DNA of 22,617 nucleotides, taken from positions 1 to 22,617 of the IMG/VR virus record IMGVR_UViG_3300025732_000287; one strand, 5' to 3'. A program made the translations under genes and the position numbers. The notes below the pieces were generated by a model that did not search any database, was not told the DNA's origin, and saw only the letters and a program-made list of their open reading frames with translations. The stretch is from a virus. This document shows positions 2 through 18,064 of this stretch, piece after piece (within the stretch, counting starts at the first letter, position 1; each line of letters begins with the position of its first letter).

Positions 2-1375
2 GCGCGGGTGTACGCAAGTGGTTGGCCGTCTCCAACCGCCTTATTTGACCCCTACTTCGAGAGCGTCAGCCTGTTGCTGCACATGGATGGCAGCAATGCG
101 AGCACGACGTTTGTTGATAGCAGTCTGGGCAATCTGGCTGTCACTGCAAACGGCAATGCGCAAATTTCTACGGCGCAGTCGAAGTTTGGGGGGAGTAGTG
201 GGCTGTTTGATGGGAACGGCGATTATTTAACACTTGCGGATAGTTCTATTTGGGACTTGTCGGGCGATTTTACGATTGAAGCTTGGGTCAAGGCATCCGC
301 CACTGGATTTGGGCCTATATTCTCAACCAGGAACACGGGAGCCGCCGTCAATCCAGTTCTCTATCTCTGGGATACTGGCGTTTTGGCGTGGTATTACAAT
401 ACTGCAGCCCGTATAACCGGAACGACAAATATCGTAGGAGGGAATTTCTACCATGTGGCGGTCTGCCGATCGGGTGACTCGACTCGTCTATTCGTAAACG
501 GAGTCCAAGAGGGTGCGACTTATGTAAATTCTGATACTTATGTTGCTGATGGAGTCTGGATAGGGTCTATACCTGCATCTAATCAGCACTTTAATGGCTA
601 CATCGATGATCTCCGCGTTACAAAAGGGGTAGCTCGCTACACCAGCAATTTCACGCCTCCCACCCTGCCCTTCTACAACACCACCATCCCCACCGTTGAC
701 TCCAGCTTCTCCAGCGTGAGCCTGCTGCTGCACATGGACGGTGCAAACGGCTCAACGACGTTCACGGACTCCAGTAGCAATGCGCTGGCAGTCACTGCCA
801 ACGGCAACGCGCAGATCACGACGACTAACTCCAAATACGGAAGCGGGTGTGGCTTATTCGATGGGACTGGCGATACACTTACTATCTCCGATACAGACCT
901 TCTTGAGTTCGGCGGCGACGACTACACGATAGAACTGTGGATTAATACGACACAGACAACGCAATACAGCACTCTGATCAGCCGCATGAACGGCGCTTTT
1001 ACAAATGGCTCGTGGACTTTGTTGATTAACAACTCAGGCACAGGTGGAGGAGAGGTAGCGTGGTGGGTTCAGAACCACAGCATTGCTGGGCCGATGATGA
1101 CGACTTCAGGTGTTTCGGTAATTGATGGAGCGTATCATCACATAGCTGTTGTGCGTAATGGATCTGCACACGCAATTTATGTAGATGGCGTCAGCAGGGC
1201 CACTGCCACAACTACCTACACGATTTCCAATGTGGCTTTAGGCGTCACGATCGCGGGTGATGCTACTTACGGACGCAACTACAACGGGCGCATTGACGAT
1301 CTCCGCATCACCAAAGGCGTAGCTCGCTACACGTCCAACTTCTACATCCCTCGCGCAGCGTTCCCTGACGCTTAG
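2..1375 (+). CDS. LamG/concanavalin A-like repeat virion protein, 5' truncated by window
   Basis: The frame is open to the first base of the window, so the GTG at position 8 is probably not the start and the protein continues upstream. Two LamG (concanavalin A-like jellyroll) domains are visible. Each begins with SVSLLLHMDG and ends with a DDLR-TKGVARYTSNF signature. They cover about residues 19-213 and 235-447 counted from the GTG. The residues before the first domain resemble the linker between the two, so there is probably at least one more copy upstream. Such tandem LamG proteins are common in cyanophage tails and are thought to bind surface sugars; that role here is inference. It leads a run of late + strand structural genes. 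The first LamG copy has stretches of clearly lower GC than the linker regions, which suggests module exchange. Confidence 0.8.
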   Translation, partial: ARVYASGWPSPTALFDPYFESVSLLLHMDGSNASTTFVDSSLGNLAVTANGNAQISTAQSKFGGSSGLFDGNGDYLTLADSSIWDLSGDFTIEAWVKASATGFGPIFSTRNTGAAVNPVLYLWDTGVLAWYYNTAARITGTTNIVGGNFYHVAVCRSGDSTRLFVNGVQEGATYVNSDTYVADGVWIGSIPASNQHFNGYIDDLRVTKGVARYTSNFTPPTLPFYNTTIPTVDSSFSSVSLLLHMDGANGSTTFTDSSSNALAVTANGNAQITTTNSKYGSGCGLFDGTGDTLTISDTDLLEFGGDDYTIELWINTTQTTQYSTLISRMNGAFTNGSWTLLINNSGTGGGEVAWWVQNHSIAGPMMTTSGVSVIDGAYHHIAVVRNGSAHAIYVDGVSRATATTTYTISNVALGVTIAGDATYGRNYNGRIDDLRITKGVARYTSNFYIPRAAFPDA

Positions 1376-6348: not shown

Positions 6349-9153
6349 ATGGCTGTTGCACATAGCTCTGCCTCGGAGTCCCATACAGGGACAACAGGCT
6401 CAACCAACCAGACGGCGTTCAGCTGGACACATACACAGACGGGCACGCCTCGGGGTGTGCTCGTTTTTGTGCATGTCGCCAACAGCACTCTTAATCCGGT
6501 TGGTACCGTCACCTACGGCAGCGTCACACTGACGCAAGTTGAAGGCGGCGCCGCAATCGATAGTGCCGGTGAAGCTGGCCGAACTGATCTGTTCTTTGCC
6601 GGATCCGGGCTACCCAGCGGCAACCAGACGATCACGGTCAACCGGACCAGCAACGCCGCGATTATGTACGCGTCGGCGGCCACCGTAACGGCGGCCACGA
6701 ACACCAACGTCACCGGCATTGTGCTGCTGGAAGGCGATGGCACGATGGCCGAGCAGAGTGTCGATGACGGCACTCCTGGCACCAATAGCCTGCGCTACGC
6801 AGCCGCCTACTCAGGTCTTAACGCACCCCCGACGACTGGTGCGAACAGCACATCGCTCACCAGTATTGACTTCGGCAACTACACGGCTGCGATGGTCCGC
6901 GAGACCACCGCCGGCCGAGGTGCCCGCTTAGTTGGTTTTACAACCGCCAGCGACGACCGCGCCGCGGTGCATGTGGCGGTGCGCGAGCTGTGGAACCGCA
7001 CTGATACCGAGACGGTCGGCGCGTTCACGCTGACGGGCAACGCCGCCACGCTGGCCCGTGCGTATGCACTAACCGCTGAGGCGGGTACTTTCACTGCCAC
7101 CGGCAATGATGCAGGGCTGAAGAAACCAGCTGCTATAAAGGCCGATGTTGGCAAGTTTTTCGCTACACCATCATTCAATGATTTAGCATATAGTGAGCAA
7201 CTCACTGGCCCTTACTGGACTAAGCTCGGTGTCACCGCCACTGAGAACGCAACAACAGCACCAGACGGAACGCTGACAGCAGAGCTTTTCGTTGAGAATA
7301 CGACTAGCAACCTTCATGGTTTTAGGAGAACAAGGACTTACGAAGCTGGAGTTGAGTATACAGCGTCTATTTACCTCAAGCCCTACAACACATCACGCGG
7401 TATTGAGCTGACGCTGGGGGATAATGGTATTGCGTTCGGTTCAGGCTCTGATCCGCCTACTATTAGAGTCAACCTCAACACAGGGACAATACTCGCGGTA
7501 ACTGGCTCTCCCAGTGCAACTTCGCTAACCAACGAAGGAAACGGCTGGTATAGAGCATCTATTACTAAAACTGCCATATCAGACTCATCTATTTGCAACT
7601 ACACGGTTTACCCTGTAAATATTAATACCGTTTACGTAGGTGACGGTACAACTGGTTTTTATGCGTGGGGAGCGCAGCACCAAGAAGGGCCACTGACCCC
7701 GTACGAGCCAACTGCTCCATCAACAGGTATCGGTAGCGTCGCAACGCGACTTGCATCGCTATACCACAATCACACGCTAACAGGCGAAGTTGGTGGGTTT
7801 GCATTAACTGGTCAGCCCGTAGCGTTGACCAAGAACCGCCCAGTTACGGGCGGCACCGGCGCGTTCACCCTGACCGGGCAGCCGGCTGAAGCTAGCCACA
7901 ACGTCGTCATCGAGGGCGGCACTGGTGCGTTCAGCCTCGTTGGCAACGACGCCACGCTGAGCAAGGCGGCGGCCTCAAAGGTACTGACCGCCGACACCGG
8001 CAGCTTTGCTCTTGCTGGCGGTGCGCCAGGTCTCAGCGTCGGCCATCACCTTGATCCTGTCGTTGGAGCGTTTGCGTTCACCGGCAACCAGGCCGGTCTG
8101 GCGGATACCGATCGCCTCACCGCTGAGACGGGCGCGTTTGCGCTGACCGGTAACCCTGCGACCGTGCGGCGTGGGTATGCGCTGGCCGCGGCCGCCGGCA
8201 TATTCACGGCAGCTGGCCAACCGGCAACGCTGCGCCAGAACCCGCGCATCGAGGCCAACAGCGGCAGCTTTGCGCTGAGCGGCGGCGCCCCTGCCCTGCT
8301 GCGCGGTCGTTACCTGAGTGGCGGTGCTGGCGAGTTCATCGAGACGGGCCAGCCGGTTGCATTCCGCCGCACCTGGGCGGTTCAGGCGGCCACCGGTGCT
8401 TTTGCGTTCACCGGCAACCCGGCCAGCCTCACCGAGCTTGGCGCCTACGAGATCGATGCGCTCGTCGGCGCCTTCACGTTTTCGGGGCAGCCCGCCAACC
8501 TGGCTCAAAGCCAGACCATGCCGGTCACTGCCGGCACCTTCACGCTCTCTGGGCAACCGGCGACACTGCGCCAGAACCCGGCACTCGCTGCCGAGACCGG
8601 AGCATTCGCCGTCAGCGGCCAGCCAGCGGGGCTGACGCAGGGGTACCAGCTCAACTGCGCCGCAGGCAGCTTCAGTGTTGCTGGCAATGCCGCGACGCTA
8701 ACCAAGCTGTCGGCCAAGCAGCTTCTGGCGGATGTCGGTGCATTTGCACTCACGGGCCAGCCGGCGGTGCAAACGCACGCCCGTCAGCTCGGAGCTGCGG
8801 CGGGCGCATTTGGCTTGGCCTCCAACGGGGCAGCGTTCCGCCGTACCTGGGCTGTAGCCCCAGATAGCGGCACCTTCGCGCTCACCGGCAGCGCCGCCAC
8901 GCTGTCGGCGCTCAGAGCCTTTCAGCTCACTGCCACTGCCGGCGTTTTCACCGTTGGCGGCAATGCAGCCACTCTCCGCACCAGTCGCCTGCTTTCTGCG
9001 ACGTTCGGCAGCTTTGCGCTTACCGGCAACAACGCAAACCTATCCGATACCGACGAGCTATTCGCAGCTGCCGGCACCTTTGTTGTGACAAGTTATGCCG
9101 CAGCGCTGAACAAGACAACTACCGCCAGGCGCCGCAACGTACTGATCTTCTAG
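6349..9153 (+). CDS. large repeat protein with inserted carbohydrate-binding-like domain (probable tail protein)
   Basis: A 934-residue protein with a good ribosome binding site (GGAGGCAGGG before ATG 6349). Residues 1-220 are a beta-rich head domain found in phage appendage proteins (PRGVLVFVHVANSTLNPVG and similar). Then come 22-residue repeats of the type ETGAFALTGNPATL plus eight variable residues. Two full and one broken unit precede residue about 268, and 20 units run from about 475 to the C-terminus. Between them, about residues 270-465 form a single beta domain (SFNDLAYSEQLTGPYWTKLG at its start, GTTGFYAWGAQHQEGPLTPY at its end). It resembles the carbohydrate-binding-like domains of phage head spike fibres. 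The insert is AT-rich while the repeats are GC-rich. The product is likely a long, repetitive tail or fibre protein; the exact role is not known. The C-terminus is basic (ARRRNVLIF). Confidence 0.7.
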   Translation: MAVAHSSASESHTGTTGSTNQTAFSWTHTQTGTPRGVLVFVHVANSTLNPVGTVTYGSVTLTQVEGGAAIDSAGEAGRTDLFFAGSGLPSGNQTITVNRTSNAAIMYASAATVTAATNTNVTGIVLLEGDGTMAEQSVDDGTPGTNSLRYAAAYSGLNAPPTTGANSTSLTSIDFGNYTAAMVRETTAGRGARLVGFTTASDDRAAVHVAVRELWNRTDTETVGAFTLTGNAATLARAYALTAEAGTFTATGNDAGLKKPAAIKADVGKFFATPSFNDLAYSEQLTGPYWTKLGVTATENATTAPDGTLTAELFVENTTSNLHGFRRTRTYEAGVEYTASIYLKPYNTSRGIELTLGDNGIAFGSGSDPPTIRVNLNTGTILAVTGSPSATSLTNEGNGWYRASITKTAISDSSICNYTVYPVNINTVYVGDGTTGFYAWGAQHQEGPLTPYEPTAPSTGIGSVATRLASLYHNHTLTGEVGGFALTGQPVALTKNRPVTGGTGAFTLTGQPAEASHNVVIEGGTGAFSLVGNDATLSKAAASKVLTADTGSFALAGGAPGLSVGHHLDPVVGAFAFTGNQAGLADTDRLTAETGAFALTGNPATVRRGYALAAAAGIFTAAGQPATLRQNPRIEANSGSFALSGGAPALLRGRYLSGGAGEFIETGQPVAFRRTWAVQAATGAFAFTGNPASLTELGAYEIDALVGAFTFSGQPANLAQSQTMPVTAGTFTLSGQPATLRQNPALAAETGAFAVSGQPAGLTQGYQLNCAAGSFSVAGNAATLTKLSAKQLLADVGAFALTGQPAVQTHARQLGAAAGAFGLASNGAAFRRTWAVAPDSGTFALTGSAATLSALRAFQLTATAGVFTVGGNAATLRTSRLLSATFGSFALTGNNANLSDTDELFAAAGTFVVTSYAAALNKTTTARRRNVLIF
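7009..9120 (+). repeat. 66-bp (22-aa) tandem repeats in the large tail protein, interrupted at about 7155-7770
   Basis: About 22 full units plus one broken unit share the pattern xxGxFxLTGxxAxL followed by eight variable residues. A few units are 24-25 residues long. The array is split by a non-repeat, AT-rich domain between about 7155 and 7770. Confidence 0.8.
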
Positions 9154-10783: not shown

Positions 10784-11821
10784 ATGACCGAGCTGGACGC
10801 CGCCAACGCCAGGCTCAAGGCCGGCAAGCACCGCTGCTCCATCCAACTCCGAGGGCGGTCCTACGCGCTCGTGGCCACCCTGCCCACACGCGACGGCAGC
10901 GCCTGCAAGCAGCAACGGATCGCCCTCGGTTCAGACATCGATCTCCTCGGTGCCGAGCGCCGTGCCGTCGAGCTTGGCGAGCAGCTCCGCAGCAAGACCT
11001 TCAGCTGGGATGCCTGGGACGTTGCACCGGCCTCCGAGGCCCTCACCGTCCCCGACTTCATCAAAGCCGCCCAGGCCCTGCACGCCTCCAAGTACCGCAA
11101 GGACCCCGAGCGCGGCAACAACGCCTGGTCCAAGAAGTGGGGCCCGGCGCTGCGCAAGCTCCCGCCCTCGGGTGTTGTCAGCGCGTCCGTCTTGCTGCGC
11201 GTGATCCGGACCATGCCCGCGGGTAGCGCCGTGCGCCGGGACCAGGGCAACCTGTTAAGCCAAATCGCCAAATCCCTTGGCTTAGACACCGAACCGCTCC
11301 TCGAAGCCTGCCGCGGCTACGGCGTTGACAAACTCACCGAGCGCGACATCCCCTCGGACGAGGCCATCGAGGCAGCGCTGAAGCACGTCACCCTGCCGCA
11401 CTGGCGTTGGACCTTCGGGATGTGTGCGGCCTACGGCCTCCGCCCCCATGAGTGCGCCGAGCTCGTGTTCCTGGAGGACAATTGGATCGAGGTGCACGAC
11501 AGAACCAAGACCGGCTCCCGCCGCGTCACCGCGTGCCCGAGCGCATGGGTCGAGCGCTTCGCTCTCCGTGAGATGCCACGCCCCAGCCAAAGCGCCAGTC
11601 ACCTGGGCAAGGCGCTCAACGACGCCCTCGATCGAGACGGGGTAACGATCAAGCCGTACAACATGCGTCACGCCTTCGCCCTGCGCCTGATGACCAAGGG
11701 CGTCGGAGCCGACATCGCAGCGAGACTCATGGGTCACAGCCTGCAGGTGCACCAGACGACCTATCAGAAGTGGATCGAGGCCGACCGGATTCAAAAAGTC
11801 ATGGTGGGCATTCAGCTTTAG
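10784..11821 (+). CDS. int: tyrosine-type site-specific integrase
   Basis: A 345-residue tyrosine recombinase. Residues 1-80 look like an arm-binding region, about 85-180 a core-binding domain, and 190-345 the catalytic domain. The catalytic residues visible are R220 (AYGLRPHEC), K242 (RTKTGSR), R295 (YNMRHAF), H318 (MGHS) and nucleophile Y327 (TTYQKW). The usual histidine of box II (HxxR) is a tyrosine (Y292), a known variation. The gene starts right after the right arm repeats and 130 bp from the attP core, the normal place for an integrase. TACTCTG at 10744-10750 is a weak promoter candidate. Overlap of its promoter with arm repeats suggests autoregulation (inference). Confidence 0.92.
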   Translation: MTELDAANARLKAGKHRCSIQLRGRSYALVATLPTRDGSACKQQRIALGSDIDLLGAERRAVELGEQLRSKTFSWDAWDVAPASEALTVPDFIKAAQALHASKYRKDPERGNNAWSKKWGPALRKLPPSGVVSASVLLRVIRTMPAGSAVRRDQGNLLSQIAKSLGLDTEPLLEACRGYGVDKLTERDIPSDEAIEAALKHVTLPHWRWTFGMCAAYGLRPHECAELVFLEDNWIEVHDRTKTGSRRVTACPSAWVERFALREMPRPSQSASHLGKALNDALDRDGVTIKPYNMRHAFALRLMTKGVGADIAARLMGHSLQVHQTTYQKWIEADRIQKVMVGIQL

Positions 11822-12974: not shown

Positions 12975-14924
12975 TTATTTCGCATCTGCCCAGGTCTTAC
13001 CCCATGACACTTCGGCCTCGACGGGAACGTTCGAGCACACCTCTGCACCGGCTGACTCCATCGCGTTTTTGAGCACAGTCGCCCAGTGCTCCTCACGCCC
13101 TTCCTTGACCTCAAGGACGATTTCGTCGTGCACCATGGCGATCAGCCTGGCTTCGTCAGCAGGAGCGGCAAGGATTGCATCCCACAACTTGGCGATAGCA
13201 AGTTTTGCAATATCACCAGCTGTGCCTTGAACCTGCGTATTGATGCGCGTGGTGTACTTATCATTAAACCCGAGCAGCCTGCGACGCCTCCCGAGGGCGG
13301 TCTGCACGCACGGCGTCGTACGCGTACCTTCCTCCTGCTGCCAGCGATAGAGCTTGGGGTAAGCGGAGCGAAAGCCCTCGACAATCTCCCTGGCCTCATC
13401 GATGTTCATGTCAACGCCGTACTGAGCAATCGCTTGTTTCTGCAATGTTGCTGCGCCCGCACCATACAGCAAACCAAAATTAGCCATCTTAGCAGAAGTT
13501 CTAGCTTCTTTAGTAACTTTATCCAGCGGCACACCGGTAATCAATGAAGCGGTCTCGGTGTGAAGGTCGCGCCCTGCTCGATATGCCTCCAGCATGCGCT
13601 CCTCCCCCGAGAGCTCCGCAGCGACCCGCAGCTCCACCTGAGAGAAGTCCGCGACCACGAGTGCGTACCCCGGCGCCGCCACAAACTTGCTCCGAAAGTC
13701 CTTGCCGCGGTTGACCTGCTGAAGGTTCGGAGATGCCGCGCTCAGACGCCCTGTCTCGGTGCCCATCTGCCTGTAGTTGCAGTGAATCCGACCATCCGGA
13801 CCAATGGACTCCAGCAGCTTCTCGATGTTGCTGACCTTCGTCACCGAGGTCTTCCAGTTGAGGTACTGATCAACCAGCTCTTCACTGCTCCGCAAAAACG
13901 CCAACAGGTTCTGGTCCAGGCTCGGGGCACCCTTCTCGTCGGGGGGCAGCAGGATCCCGGCTTTCTCGAAGCCCTCCGCCATCTGTTTCGGCGAGCGCGG
14001 GTTGAAGCCCTTGTAAAGTTTTGTGCCAAGCCGTTTGACCCCCGAGTCTTTCTCCCGGGTGTTGATGCTCCCGTCTGGATCTCGCGGCAACCAGGAGTTC
14101 GGATCGTCAGGCAGGTTGCGTCGAATCTCCTGATCCAGGTGCTCCAGGAACAGCGTTTTGAGAGCCTCAGACTCCTCTGTCAGGGACAGACGCAGTTCCT
14201 CCGCACCGTCGCGGTCAAACCCGAACCCGTGCCACTGCATCAGCGCGATCGGGCGCAGGGCCCGCATCTCCAGCGCAAACAGATCCCAATTCGTGGTGTC
14301 GCCCCGCATGATGTCGCCGCGCAATTTCTGGCTCAGTAGCGGCGCCAGGTGAGGCAGGCAGATGGCGTCCCGCGCCGAGTAGACGAACTGCTCTGAGCTG
14401 ATCTCCCCGCTCCAATCCGACTTCTGGAGCTCCTTCGGCATCTCGAAGCCCAAGTTGCGCTCAACTATCGCCCCGAGGTCGTTCTTCGCCCCCGACCCGT
14501 TGTTGATCAGCTTGGCGGCGACCATGGTGTCGAAGATCAGCCCCCCGAGAACGACACCCTCCCCCCGCAAGAAATTCAGATCAAACGCCGCGTTCTGCAG
14601 GATCTTGCGCTGGGGCCCTTCTAATAATTCCTTAAGGTCACGTAGGCCCTCGGCCTCCCACGGCACAGCCCGCTCACCGTCCTTGCGCCATCCGTTGAGG
14701 TCAACAATCAGTGCAAAATCTTTCATTCCGAGCTGGATGAGCCGCACCTGATCCACTCGTGGATCGAGGCCGGTGGTCTCGGTATCAACCCCGAAAGGCT
14801 CGCCTGACCCTGCGATCTGGGCGACGCGCTGACGCAGCATGGTGGCCTGGCTCGGCCCCCGCACCACGTCGAAGTCTGGACGGCGAAGCGCTTCGCAGGC
14901 GCCCTCAACAAGTTTCGATGGCAT
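12975..14924 (-). CDS. polA: family A DNA polymerase with 3'-5' exonuclease
   Basis: A 649-residue phage replicative DNA polymerase. The DnaQ-like proofreading domain has ExoI DTETTGLD (D47, E49), ExoII NAAFDLNF (D115) and ExoIII YSARDA (Y182, D186). The polymerase domain has motif A DFSQVELR (D426), motif B RTSAKMANFGLLYG (R475, K479, F483, Y487) and motif C VHDEIVLEV (H599, D600). All key residues are present, so it should be active. F483 corresponds to E. coli Pol I position 762. No 5'-nuclease domain exists, as in T7-like polymerases. The start ATG 14924 leaves 23 bp to the divergent gene at 14948. Codons around 13430-13530, which encode motif B, are much more AT-rich than the rest. Confidence 0.95.
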   Translation of the reverse strand: MPSKLVEGACEALRRPDFDVVRGPSQATMLRQRVAQIAGSGEPFGVDTETTGLDPRVDQVRLIQLGMKDFALIVDLNGWRKDGERAVPWEAEGLRDLKELLEGPQRKILQNAAFDLNFLRGEGVVLGGLIFDTMVAAKLINNGSGAKNDLGAIVERNLGFEMPKELQKSDWSGEISSEQFVYSARDAICLPHLAPLLSQKLRGDIMRGDTTNWDLFALEMRALRPIALMQWHGFGFDRDGAEELRLSLTEESEALKTLFLEHLDQEIRRNLPDDPNSWLPRDPDGSINTREKDSGVKRLGTKLYKGFNPRSPKQMAEGFEKAGILLPPDEKGAPSLDQNLLAFLRSSEELVDQYLNWKTSVTKVSNIEKLLESIGPDGRIHCNYRQMGTETGRLSAASPNLQQVNRGKDFRSKFVAAPGYALVVADFSQVELRVAAELSGEERMLEAYRAGRDLHTETASLITGVPLDKVTKEARTSAKMANFGLLYGAGAATLQKQAIAQYGVDMNIDEAREIVEGFRSAYPKLYRWQQEEGTRTTPCVQTALGRRRRLLGFNDKYTTRINTQVQGTAGDIAKLAIAKLWDAILAAPADEARLIAMVHDEIVLEVKEGREEHWATVLKNAMESAGAEVCSNVPVEAEVSWGKTWADAK

Positions 14925-15277: not shown

Positions 15278-18064
15278 TCACCAGTCCTCGTTGAACTGGG
15301 CCCAGTCCTCCGGCGTCTCCTGCCACTCCCTCAGGACGGGAACGTCCGGGTTGCCTGGCTGGAGGGGTGATTCGGGTTCTCCTGTGGCTGGATCAGCTCG
15401 GCGAAAGTCACTGGACGCCTCCTTTATGTATCCGTTTTTGTCCGTTGTCCGTTCATCCCCGAGATCGCCCTCGGGGACTGGGATTCTTGAACGGACATCC
15501 TGTTCCGGTTCTGGTTGATGTCCGTTCATCCCCTGAGCTGGTTGGGCGCTCTCGGATGAAAAGACACTAGCCCCGTCCGCGGTGGGGATGTCCGTTCTTA
15601 AATCCTGTTCCTGCAGGCGATCTCGGGGATGAATGGACAAAGGACATGAAAATGAGGGCAACGCACGCGAGGGGGTGGGTGGGAGTGTGTAGGACGGCAC
15701 CGGGCGCCGCTGCCCCTCAACCGGCACAGGCTTCCCCTCCTTGAGCACGCCGCTATCCACCCACCGGTCCAGCCACCGCTTCACCGTCTTGCTTGAGGGT
15801 GCCTGCCTGCCCTGACCGCCCATCTCGCCGACCAGGCGCTCCCAGACCTCCTTGGCGGTCATGCGGTCGTTCCCGTCGCCGTCCTCGCTCCGGGCCTTCA
15901 GCACCCGGTCCTTGACGATGCGCAACGCCATCGTGTTCGGCTCTGGATCCCCCTGGCCCTGGTCCTCTCGCCGCTCCGTCGGGGTGTAGTCCCACACCGA
16001 GTACGCGAAATCCTGGTTCCGCTCGACCACCAGCAGGTCGCCCTGGCGCCCCAGGCGTGACTTCTTGATCTGGATCATGCGGCAGTTGCTCGGGCTGTAC
16101 CGCCGCTCCCTCAGGGCCTCCCGCTCGTCCTCCGAGAGCGTCCTCAGATGCCACTGCTCATCGACCGCCGCCACGAGGTAGCGCGTCCCCCTGGCGTCTC
16201 CCTGGGCGTTGTCGTGGTGGATCCAGATGATCGAGGTGGCGGGAAAGCCCCCCTCGCCTGGGTCACCGTTTTTCTCGGAGTAGTAATAGAAGGGGCTCGC
16301 GAACGCCTTGTCCTTCTCCTCGACCTGCATCTTGGTGGAGCAGGAGCCGATCGAATCCACGACCACGAGCGCGGGCTTGTAGGCCCGGATCCACTCAGCG
16401 AATTCGTGAGTGTGGTTGAGCTGGAAGCCGCGCTTGACGATGAACCACTTGTCGAGGGCGGGGTTGATGCCGTTGTCCTCGCAGTCCTGCAGGAGCTTGG
16501 CTGGGTTCTGGTCGTTCTGAACCCAGAGCACCGTGCCCTGCTTCACAGGGAGCTCGATGCCGCGGATCTTGATCGGGGTCCCTCGGCCCACTGCCGTAGC
16601 CAGGCCCATGCATGCCGACGTTTTCCCGAGGCCACCAGCGGCGTGCAGCATCACCTGGGCGGGCCTCATCAGCAGGTTCGGCACGAGGAACTGCATGCGC
16701 TCCACGTCTTGCCACCAGTGCTTCTTCTCGTTCTGCCGGCGCGAGTCCCGGTAGTACCGGTACTCATCCATGGCAGCGAGGCATTGCGACCCGTTGAGCC
16801 GCCGCCCGGTCTCTGCCGCGAGCTCGGCCATCCGCGCTACGCGCAGCGCGGGGTTCATCTCCTCGTCGTGGATCTTGATGAGCGCCTCGTGGAAATCCCT
16901 GGCGTTCATGACGAGCCGCGGGACCTCCTTGGTGATCTGAGCCCTGGCGTCCTCTGGGTAGTTGAAGCCGATCTTCTCCGCGAGGTCGGCGACGTACTTC
17001 TCAAGGTCCGCCCCGGTGGGTTTCCCAGCGAAGAGGTCGTCGACCTTGATCTTGTGGATGAAGTCGAGGACGTCACCACCGACGTTGCACGCCTTGCAGT
17101 GCCAGCAACCGCTTTCCGCGGAGAACTGGAAGGTGTTGCCGCTCTTGCCACCGTGCCAAGGGCAGCCCGACATCATCTGTGGGCTGTTCCCCTCGCGCTG
17201 ATGCCAGCCGTACTTGTCAAACACCGGGTGCTGGAACACCAGCTCCTGTAACCGAGGCTGGAGCTTGGCCTGCACCTCCGCTTTGAAGAACCAGCCCCGG
17301 ATCTGCCGTGGCGGAATGACGGTCTGCCCCCCGAGCTCGGCATCGAGCTCTTTCTGAGTGGCATCGGGAAGCCACGGCACTGGCTTGCGGAAGCCCAGGA
17401 GCACGCTGAGCACCCAACCCGGCGCCCTGGCGACGCGACCTTCGTTGTAGTTCAGAAAGCGATAGCGCCCGCCTGTATCGGGGTGGGGCGAGCCCGGCAG
17501 CACCGACTGACAGGCGTTGAAGCGCAGAACGACTTCCTCATAGGGGGCATCGCCGTCCTGGATGACGCCCTGCCCTTGCTTGGAGCCCTGACGCTCGACG
17601 TCGGAGTTGCCCTTGTGCCAGGCACCGTCCAAGCGGAGGATCAGCGTGGAGATGTCTTCGAGCTCATCGATGATCTGCTGGGGAAGCTGGTAGATGATCT
17701 GGCGCCGGCCCGGCCGCCCGGACGTCCAGGACATCGTCTGCTCCTCGCCGTAGGGCTCGTACTCCTCGCCCGCCTCGGCCTTGTATCGGGCATCGGCTTC
17801 CGGGCCATCGATGTCGAGGGCGATGAGGCCCATCGAGTGCTTGCCGGTGACAACCCCAACGCCGCGGTAGGACTGACGAGCCTTGTACGCCTCGATGCAC
17901 AGCTCCGCCGTCAGGGGCGCGGACGGCCATTTCTCGACGTAGGTCTCCTTGCCAGCCACCGGCACGAAGCGCCACCAGCTGGGGAAGACGCCCTTCCGCA
18001 GCAGGTCGATGGCCTTACCCCCGAGGTCGTCAGGAGTAGGACTTGCAGATTGTGAAGCAACCAT
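15278..18064 (-). CDS. primase-polymerase/helicase replication protein
   Basis: A 928-residue fusion. Residues about 15-225 are an archaeo-eukaryotic-type primase (bifunctional primase/polymerase) domain with VVTGKHSMGLIALDID (metal-binding D84, D86) and SGRPGRRQIIYQLP. Residues about 300-335 are a CHC2-like zinc segment, CPWHGG...CWHCKAC. Residues about 455-700 are a RecA-like helicase of the RepA/DnaB type, with Walker A GGLGKTS (477-483), Walker B LVVVDS (566-571) and IHHDNAQGDARGT. Residues about 730-790 look like a winged helix (MTAKEVWERLV...TVKRWLDRW). From about 790 on the tail is disordered, Pro/Gln/Asp-rich, and its DNA carries the repeat cluster at 15427-15652. It probably primes and unwinds phage DNA ahead of Pol A. 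It is transcribed divergently from the 18270 operon. Confidence 0.88.
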   Translation of the reverse strand: MVASQSASPTPDDLGGKAIDLLRKGVFPSWWRFVPVAGKETYVEKWPSAPLTAELCIEAYKARQSYRGVGVVTGKHSMGLIALDIDGPEADARYKAEAGEEYEPYGEEQTMSWTSGRPGRRQIIYQLPQQIIDELEDISTLILRLDGAWHKGNSDVERQGSKQGQGVIQDGDAPYEEVVLRFNACQSVLPGSPHPDTGGRYRFLNYNEGRVARAPGWVLSVLLGFRKPVPWLPDATQKELDAELGGQTVIPPRQIRGWFFKAEVQAKLQPRLQELVFQHPVFDKYGWHQREGNSPQMMSGCPWHGGKSGNTFQFSAESGCWHCKACNVGGDVLDFIHKIKVDDLFAGKPTGADLEKYVADLAEKIGFNYPEDARAQITKEVPRLVMNARDFHEALIKIHDEEMNPALRVARMAELAAETGRRLNGSQCLAAMDEYRYYRDSRRQNEKKHWWQDVERMQFLVPNLLMRPAQVMLHAAGGLGKTSACMGLATAVGRGTPIKIRGIELPVKQGTVLWVQNDQNPAKLLQDCEDNGINPALDKWFIVKRGFQLNHTHEFAEWIRAYKPALVVVDSIGSCSTKMQVEEKDKAFASPFYYYSEKNGDPGEGGFPATSIIWIHHDNAQGDARGTRYLVAAVDEQWHLRTLSEDEREALRERRYSPSNCRMIQIKKSRLGRQGDLLVVERNQDFAYSVWDYTPTERREDQGQGDPEPNTMALRIVKDRVLKARSEDGDGNDRMTAKEVWERLVGEMGGQGRQAPSSKTVKRWLDRWVDSGVLKEGKPVPVEGQRRPVPSYTLPPTPSRALPSFSCPLSIHPRDRLQEQDLRTDIPTADGASVFSSESAQPAQGMNGHQPEPEQDVRSRIPVPEGDLGDERTTDKNGYIKEASSDFRRADPATGEPESPLQPGNPDVPVLREWQETPEDWAQFNEDW
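15427..15652. repeat. iteron-like cluster and inverted repeat, candidate replication origin
   Basis: The 8-mer TGTCCGTT occurs on the + strand at 15439-15446, 15446-15453, 15519-15526 and 15589-15596, and on the - strand at 15490-15497. TATCCGTT (15429-15436) and the - strand TGTCCATT (15632-15639) are one-base variants. A 24-bp segment at 15446-15469, containing TGTCCGTTCATCCCCGAG, returns inverted at 15616-15639 with one mismatch. ATCCTGTTCC is also duplicated (15497-15506 and 15601-15610). Copies fall in different reading frames and both strands of the coding gene, so they are not explained by protein repeats. Confidence 0.6.

Follow-up and report, generated by a model that had tools for sequence, protein, structure and literature searches.

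A strand-alternating array at the 3' end of a phage primase-helicase gene: predicted sites for the encoded winged helix and a likely replication origin

The DNA analysed here, referred to below as the window (W), is a virus fragment of 22.6 kb (22,617 nt) with relatives of up to 70-72 kb. Its genes include a primase-helicase, with a family A DNA polymerase as the next gene downstream (Table 1). The Pfam search identified a PrimPol domain of the archaeo-eukaryotic type (PF09250, E=1.2e-12) together with a CHC2-type Zn ribbon in the primase-helicase, and no match to a Toprim (DnaG-like) primase. An SF3 helicase was not found in the protein either; Pfam gave AAA_25 (PF13481) instead. The C-terminal tail, whose codons carry the array of repeated sites described here, is poorly conserved and probably disordered. 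Despite this variability, the C-termini of the protein (15278-15310) and of its relatives are often acidic/aromatic (EDWAQFNEDW, FSALFEE, DDWSWPI) and resemble SSB-type interaction tails, and a contact with a partner is possible.

Elsewhere in the window, positions 6349-9153 encode a 934-aa protein with many GAFALTGQPATL-type repeats, which is likely tail-associated, and positions 10784-11821 contain a gene resembling tyrosine integrases (PHROG integrase, with Pfam below its cutoff) that hints at a temperate lifestyle. A cyanobacterial host is probable, the sole support being a cyanobacterial-type AbrB-like gene within the window (Pfam) and one relative on a contig of a cyanobacterial metagenome-assembled genome (MAG).

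Table 1. Features of the primase-helicase locus and of the array in the window.
Feature	Position	Strand	Basis
Primase-helicase gene, 928 aa	15278..18064	-	ORF, Pfam, AlphaFold2 of residues 690-795
Prim-Pol domain	residues 31-217 of primase-helicase		Pfam
CHC2-type Zn ribbon	residues 290-340 of primase-helicase		Pfam
AAA_25 RecA-like ATPase	residues 458-588 of primase-helicase		Pfam PF13481
Winged helix, residues ~709-794, predicted to read the array DNA	15683..15940	-	AlphaFold2, Foldseek
Recognition helix, residues 758-771	15752..15793	-	residue 759 covaries with word
Wing, residues 779-792, PVPVEGQRRPVPSY	15689..15730	-	residues 785, 786, 790, 791 covary with word positions 1, 2, 4, 5
Variable C-terminal tail of primase-helicase, after winged helix			carries the array
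Whole dyad-symmetric array, candidate origin	15429..15646		giant stem-loop, z=-10.9; layout shared by relatives
Outer doublet: site 1 GAATGGACA 15631-15639 and overlapping CAAAGGACA 15638-15646	15631..15646	+	
Site 2, GAACGGACA	15589..15597	-	
Site 3, degenerate in window (GAAAAGACA), intact in L004 and L006	15558..15566	+	
Site 4, GAACGGACA	15519..15527	-	
Site 5, GAACGGACA	15489..15497	+	
Outer doublet: site 6 GAACGGACA 15446-15454 and overlapping CAACGGACA 15439-15447	15439..15454	-	
Hairpin, 8-bp stem, TCCCCGAG-ATCGCC-CTCGGGGA, between sites 5 and 6	15456..15477		inverted repeat; alignment conservation
Family A DNA polymerase (PolA), next gene downstream of primase-helicase	12975..14924	-	Pfam

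An earlier note on this DNA had described five exact copies of TGTCCGTT with two one-base variants, and a 24-mer that returns inverted. The five copies were located at 15439, 15446, 15519 and 15589 on the plus strand and at 15490 on the minus strand, and were absent from the rest of the window; the one-base variants in the cluster numbered three rather than two (15429 on the plus strand, 15632 and 15639 on the minus strand). The 24-mer 15446-15469 did recur inverted at 15616-15639 with one mismatch, and extension by the program placed this pair within a 43-nt inverted repeat (15439-15481 / 15604-15646, 84% complementary). When the sites were read as NNNNGGACA on the coding strand, their order was s1-, s2+, s3-, s4+, s5-, s6+; each outer site has an overlapping second copy 7 bp away, and the whole array constitutes one large dyad. 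The sites are not direct iterons of the lambda type, lambda being the parallel drawn in the note. The outer half of the hairpin between sites 5 and 6 can also pair with the flank of site 1, and the exact hairpin pattern was found in only four contigs, all of this phage group. No AT-rich tract was present within the array (GC 0.50-0.65 across the array in the window), and only in some relatives did GC fall modestly, directly 3' of the primase-helicase gene. A search of Rfam gave no match.

Repeats in a low-complexity tail that is poorly conserved and probably disordered might be the product of chance or of repetition in the protein. However, when synonymous codons were resampled with the protein fixed, the repeat score of 5.0 observed for the window array was never reached (0/1000; maximum 4.0), the maximum under a second resampling scheme was 3.5, and the repetition in the arrays of seven relatives was likewise not reached by codon shuffles (0/300), indicating that the protein sequence does not explain the array. 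The peptides encoding the copies (RTDI, NGHQ, VRS, ERTTD) agreed with those previously listed, the reading frame differs between copies, both strands carry them, and the array of one relative (L069) is non-coding. Chance or protein repetition is refuted by the comparison with relatives and can be practically dismissed, as the earlier note had argued for the protein.

A tblastn search with the primase-helicase against the annotated phage collection gave no match. IMG/VR yielded 30 close loci, and 78 by profile search, down to 43% identity; one further relative is the cyanobacterial MAG contig (L033). An array was located at the equivalent place in approximately 70 relatives (43-91% identical), nearly all of those examined. 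Typically it consists of at least six copies of a word of about 9 nt ending in GGACA or a variant of it, with alternating strands, conserved spacing and the form of a large dyad. Site starts in the close group lie 148, 190, 221, 260, 290 and 333 nt past the TVKRW motif; the 42/31/.../43 site spacings are kept in a middle group, and a far group has its own layout, which is constant within the group. GC-alternating tracts often border the arrays on both sides in L020, L021, L024 and L057 (CGCGTGCGTTG on the left, CGCGCGCGCG on the right).

The word itself differs between phages. It is GAACGGACA in the window, L004 and L006, CAATGGACA in L003, L008, L017 and L019, CGATGGACA in L012 and L025, CGATTGACA in L014, [CG]AAAGGACA at four of the six sites of L023, GTTCGGACA in L062, GTGCGGACA in L066, TTACGGACA in L078 and L100, TTTTGGTCA in L073 and L069, TTAACGACA in L102 and TTTTGGACA in most far relatives. 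Most copies inside one phage change jointly: identity over word positions 1-5 was 0.80 between sites of one phage versus 0.62 for the same site in different phages and 0.61 for different sites in different phages, so that position within the array adds almost no similarity between words. The suggestion that the 8-mers might persist while the tail peptide changes held for the layout, which is kept with a phage-specific word, and failed for the exact 8-mers, which are not kept. Loss of the repeats with conservation of the peptide, which the note had named as a refuting outcome, was not seen; the reverse was seen, the array being kept while peptide and frame change.

In L069 (L069:4087-4281) the array is located directly 3' of the primase-helicase stop codon, with spacings of 43/29/29/29/44 and similar flanking sequence. 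In L033 (L033:1900-2170) the primase-helicase frame is shifted just after the wing and before the array, which puts the array out of frame; this shift may be natural or an assembly error. In some relatives single sites are one base off the reading frame (s2 +1, s5 -1), so that the same word corresponds to a different encoded peptide. By this comparison, the array is a DNA element.

AlphaFold2 analysis of residues 690-795 with 44 relatives predicted a winged helix (H-H-H-beta-beta, pLDDT 81) immediately before the tail. Its Foldseek matches were generic winged helices, including the replication terminator protein RTP and Fur, and a PDB sequence search with the profile gave no match. In order to locate protein regions that vary with the word, 80 protein windows were scanned in 20 close relatives with no region chosen beforehand, comparing word distance with protein distance corrected for core distance. 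The wing ranked first of the 80 windows (partial r 0.58; next 0.34; median 0.02), and with core distance removed none of 5000 permutations was as strong. Residues 783-791 gave r=0.66 (0/2000 permutations) and the recognition-helix window 755-771 gave a partial r=0.36 (7/2000). The best five of 442 variable columns (786, 790, 759, 785, 791) all fall in the winged helix, corresponding in the predicted model to the wing and the N-terminus of the recognition helix.

Individual residue-base rules were also apparent. Glutamine at 785 accompanies G at word base 1 in 17/19 cases (exceptions L020 and L021), proline at 790 accompanies a base other than T at position 4 in 18/18, with two undecided, and K-A or K-T at 786-787 accompanies G at base 2 in 3/3. 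At least 13 changes of word are needed on the core tree, which has 20 tips and is well supported. Phylogenetically independent pairs were concordant in 6-7/7 and 6/6 with none opposed, each sign test alone reaching only p = 0.016-0.03. L078 and L087, with cores 98.9% identical, differ in both wing and word. Among 23 distant relatives the wing window again ranked first (r=0.56); in that scan the words were read by eye, and windows beyond the wing overlap array codons. Partial Mantel tests are anticonservative for related sequences and the loci recombine. Site offsets were set by the GGACA core, which leaves word positions 1-4 untouched.

Wing and array are only about 40 nt apart and are swapped together, and the correlation might therefore reflect neighbours carried along in recombination. 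If so, the sequence in between should track the word as well, and this was not observed: residues 793-812, between wing and array, gave r=0.07, the DNA from the wing to the first site r=-0.02, single spacers r from -0.04 to 0.18 and pooled spacers 0.26, the hairpin between sites 5 and 6 being higher (r 0.33, 70/2000). With the spacers held constant the wing-word correlation was still r = 0.54, and identical residue-base rules occur in independent pairs. Hitchhiking is disfavoured by these flank and spacer tests and deserves very little credence. The covariation of the word with wing and recognition helix, seen in both sets of relatives, is best accounted for by binding of the encoded protein; the earlier proposal of a binding site for the gene's own product is thereby strongly supported. 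That the encoded primase-helicase recognises the array words is a well-supported inference from covariation, and there are no binding data.

Alternatively, the element might act mainly through its structure, with the words not read directly; a large hairpin, of DNA or RNA, has been proposed for pRN1 and BIP-1. Positions 15427-15652 folded as single-stranded DNA gave z = -10.9, the flanks of s1/s6 match their own partner better than those of other loci (0.634 vs 0.589, 0/5000), as do the flanks of s3/s4 (0.474 vs 0.374, 0/5000), and 20/20 private changes of L006 are common to both outer arms. The last observation suggests arm-to-arm correction through a hairpin, which could help to homogenise the copies. 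Folding strength among the arrays, however, ranges from z=-15 to -0.4, and deviations are not common to adjacent inverted partners (s4-s5 0/15, s5-s6 2/42), so the shared-deviation test did not support a pairwise-stem model. Pure structure would predict neither one shared word nor a word that tracks the wing, and a purely structural role is given little credence compared with recognition of the words by the winged helix.

Within genes that are otherwise near-identical, divergence is greatest over wing plus array. For L004 and L023, identity is 52-88% over this segment and 96-100% to either side of it, and comparable divergence was seen between the window and L003 and in other pairs. These alignments showed wing and array exchanged as one cassette between otherwise ~98%-identical phages, because the predicted reader and its sites adjoin in one gene.

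The array is likely, in our judgement, to be a set of sites bound by the C-terminal winged helix of its own primase-helicase and most likely to be the phage replication origin, although no binding or replication data exist. Origin function, the most plausible one, is inferred from the domains of the primase-helicase, from the word cluster being unique to the array locus in four 70-kb contigs, from the persistence of the array where the downstream gene is not PolA (L069, L073, L100, L012) and from known parallels. GC and AT skew in four near-complete 70-kb contigs was monotonic and says nothing on origin location. Arrays that are partly decayed or degenerate (L018/L029, L007/L030, L020) fit an essential origin poorly unless fewer sites suffice, and the absence of an AT-rich tract also speaks against an origin. 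Since covariation demonstrates recognition and not function, the primase-helicase might instead bind the array as an operator of the downstream gene, a copy-number brake, or a partition/incompatibility site; polA begins about 500 bp downstream in the shared orientation. Such a regulatory role is unlikely, without being negligible, as the array is kept with a different downstream gene, no second cluster was found near the primase-helicase gene's own start, and the predicted binder is a primase-helicase, which usually initiates at such sites.

If the array is an origin, the winged helices of several primase-helicase molecules would read the ~9-nt words, an inference from the observed covariation, with the recognition helix presumably on the shared GGACA core and the wing on the variable 5' half. 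The observed alternating layout may place protein on either side of a centre, the AAA_25 motor could then open or load at the array, with hairpin extrusion as a possible aid, and priming in both directions for the phage PolA might fall to the PrimPol domain. A cassette swap, the observed exchange, would let a phage change origin specificity in one recombination event; the inferred advantage may be the avoidance of cross-talk with co-infecting relatives.

Arrangements of a comparable kind are already known from lambda O, from RepA of PY54/N15 and from the stem-loop origins of pRN1. In lambdoid phages the iterons bound by initiator O lie inside its own gene (PMC7466680). The repeated sites here are similarly inside the primase-helicase gene, or just outside it in L069. 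In lambda the iterons, four to six in number, adjoin an AT-rich tract in the middle of the gene, and O recruits a separate host helicase and primase; here, in contrast, the protein is a fused PrimPol-helicase, the sites follow the DNA-binding domain and form a dyad on alternating strands, and the array has no AT-rich tract. As far as the titles cited in PMC10612081 indicate, the primase-helicase gene (repA) alone is the minimal replicon of PY54/N15, which places the origin within the gene. The stem-loop of pRN1 is required for replication, is poorly conserved in sequence and showed no specific binding (PMC4234260). Like ORF904 of pRN1 and BIP-1, the window protein combines a PrimPol domain, a helicase and, at its C-terminus, a winged helix, and a large element with inverted symmetry lies at the 3' end of the gene. 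pRN1 and BIP-1, however, use an SF3 helicase, and their stem-loop is outside the gene with no iterons reported, whereas here AAA_25 supplies the motor, the element usually lies in coding sequence and the repeated words covary with the winged helix. As a stem-loop of that type, the window dyad folds strongly, yet inside the gene, and some relatives fold weakly. The ori repeats of P4 lie outside the alpha gene. P4 alpha, a single protein, binds the origin repeats by a winged helix, unwinds and primes, with a Toprim-type primase (PMC4234260) where the window protein has a PrimPol. Joint variation is known from geminivirus Rep, in which the specificity residues of the iteron-related domain vary with the iteron sequence among relatives (PMC9083202), and from PLE RepA/Odn, in which phage-satellite iterons and their binders diversify (PMC8263062); these are unrelated proteins with other replication modes and sites outside the initiator gene, and the parallel is one of principle only.

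Three word-pair scans for orphan arrays outside the family returned mostly family members or isolated pairs that are probably due to chance. One candidate, L146, was rejected, its repeat lying in a structural gene. Two unrelated phages carry other GGAC-rich arrays: a dense non-coding one of CGGACAC units 3' of a DnaB-like helicase gene (L143:5578-5780), and one (CCGGACCGAACGGACA...) that immediately follows an ATPase gene and lies inside a second ORF (L140:945-1075). Plasmid loci were also compared (L176 (pRN1), L177, L178/L179 and L180). The arms of pRN1 (L176:5084-5183) contain TTATGTCCATAGTGTCCAACT and its complement, and each arm has a pair of TGTCC units, 9 bp apart, whose core GGACA is that of the window; at the same place pHEN7 has TGTCACCAC-TGTCACAAC and pRN2 GGACCGATA-GGACAGGAA, both with a 9-bp period. 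The paired units behave as if they drift together, which for so few plasmids is a lead and not a test, and a scan of BIP-1 for words gave none that was convincing.

We raise, as a speculation about which we remain doubtful, the possibility that a cyanobacterial phage family diversifies replication specificity by a wing and dyad cassette that is self-contained in one gene, passes between near-identical phages and yields a readable residue-to-base code, and that the unconserved pRN1-type stem-loops represent this device too, with arms made of inverted initiator sites whose drift is joint with that of the winged helix. This would offer a testable answer to why the essential pRN1-type stem-loop lacks sequence conservation and an agreed binding motif. 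The arrays represent a natural library of at least 10 initiator-site specificities with matching protein variants, so that exchanging a dozen residues or nine bases could serve to test origin recognition by a PrimPol-helicase. For a phage group without a member in the annotated phage collection searched, they also supply a candidate origin module that is portable.
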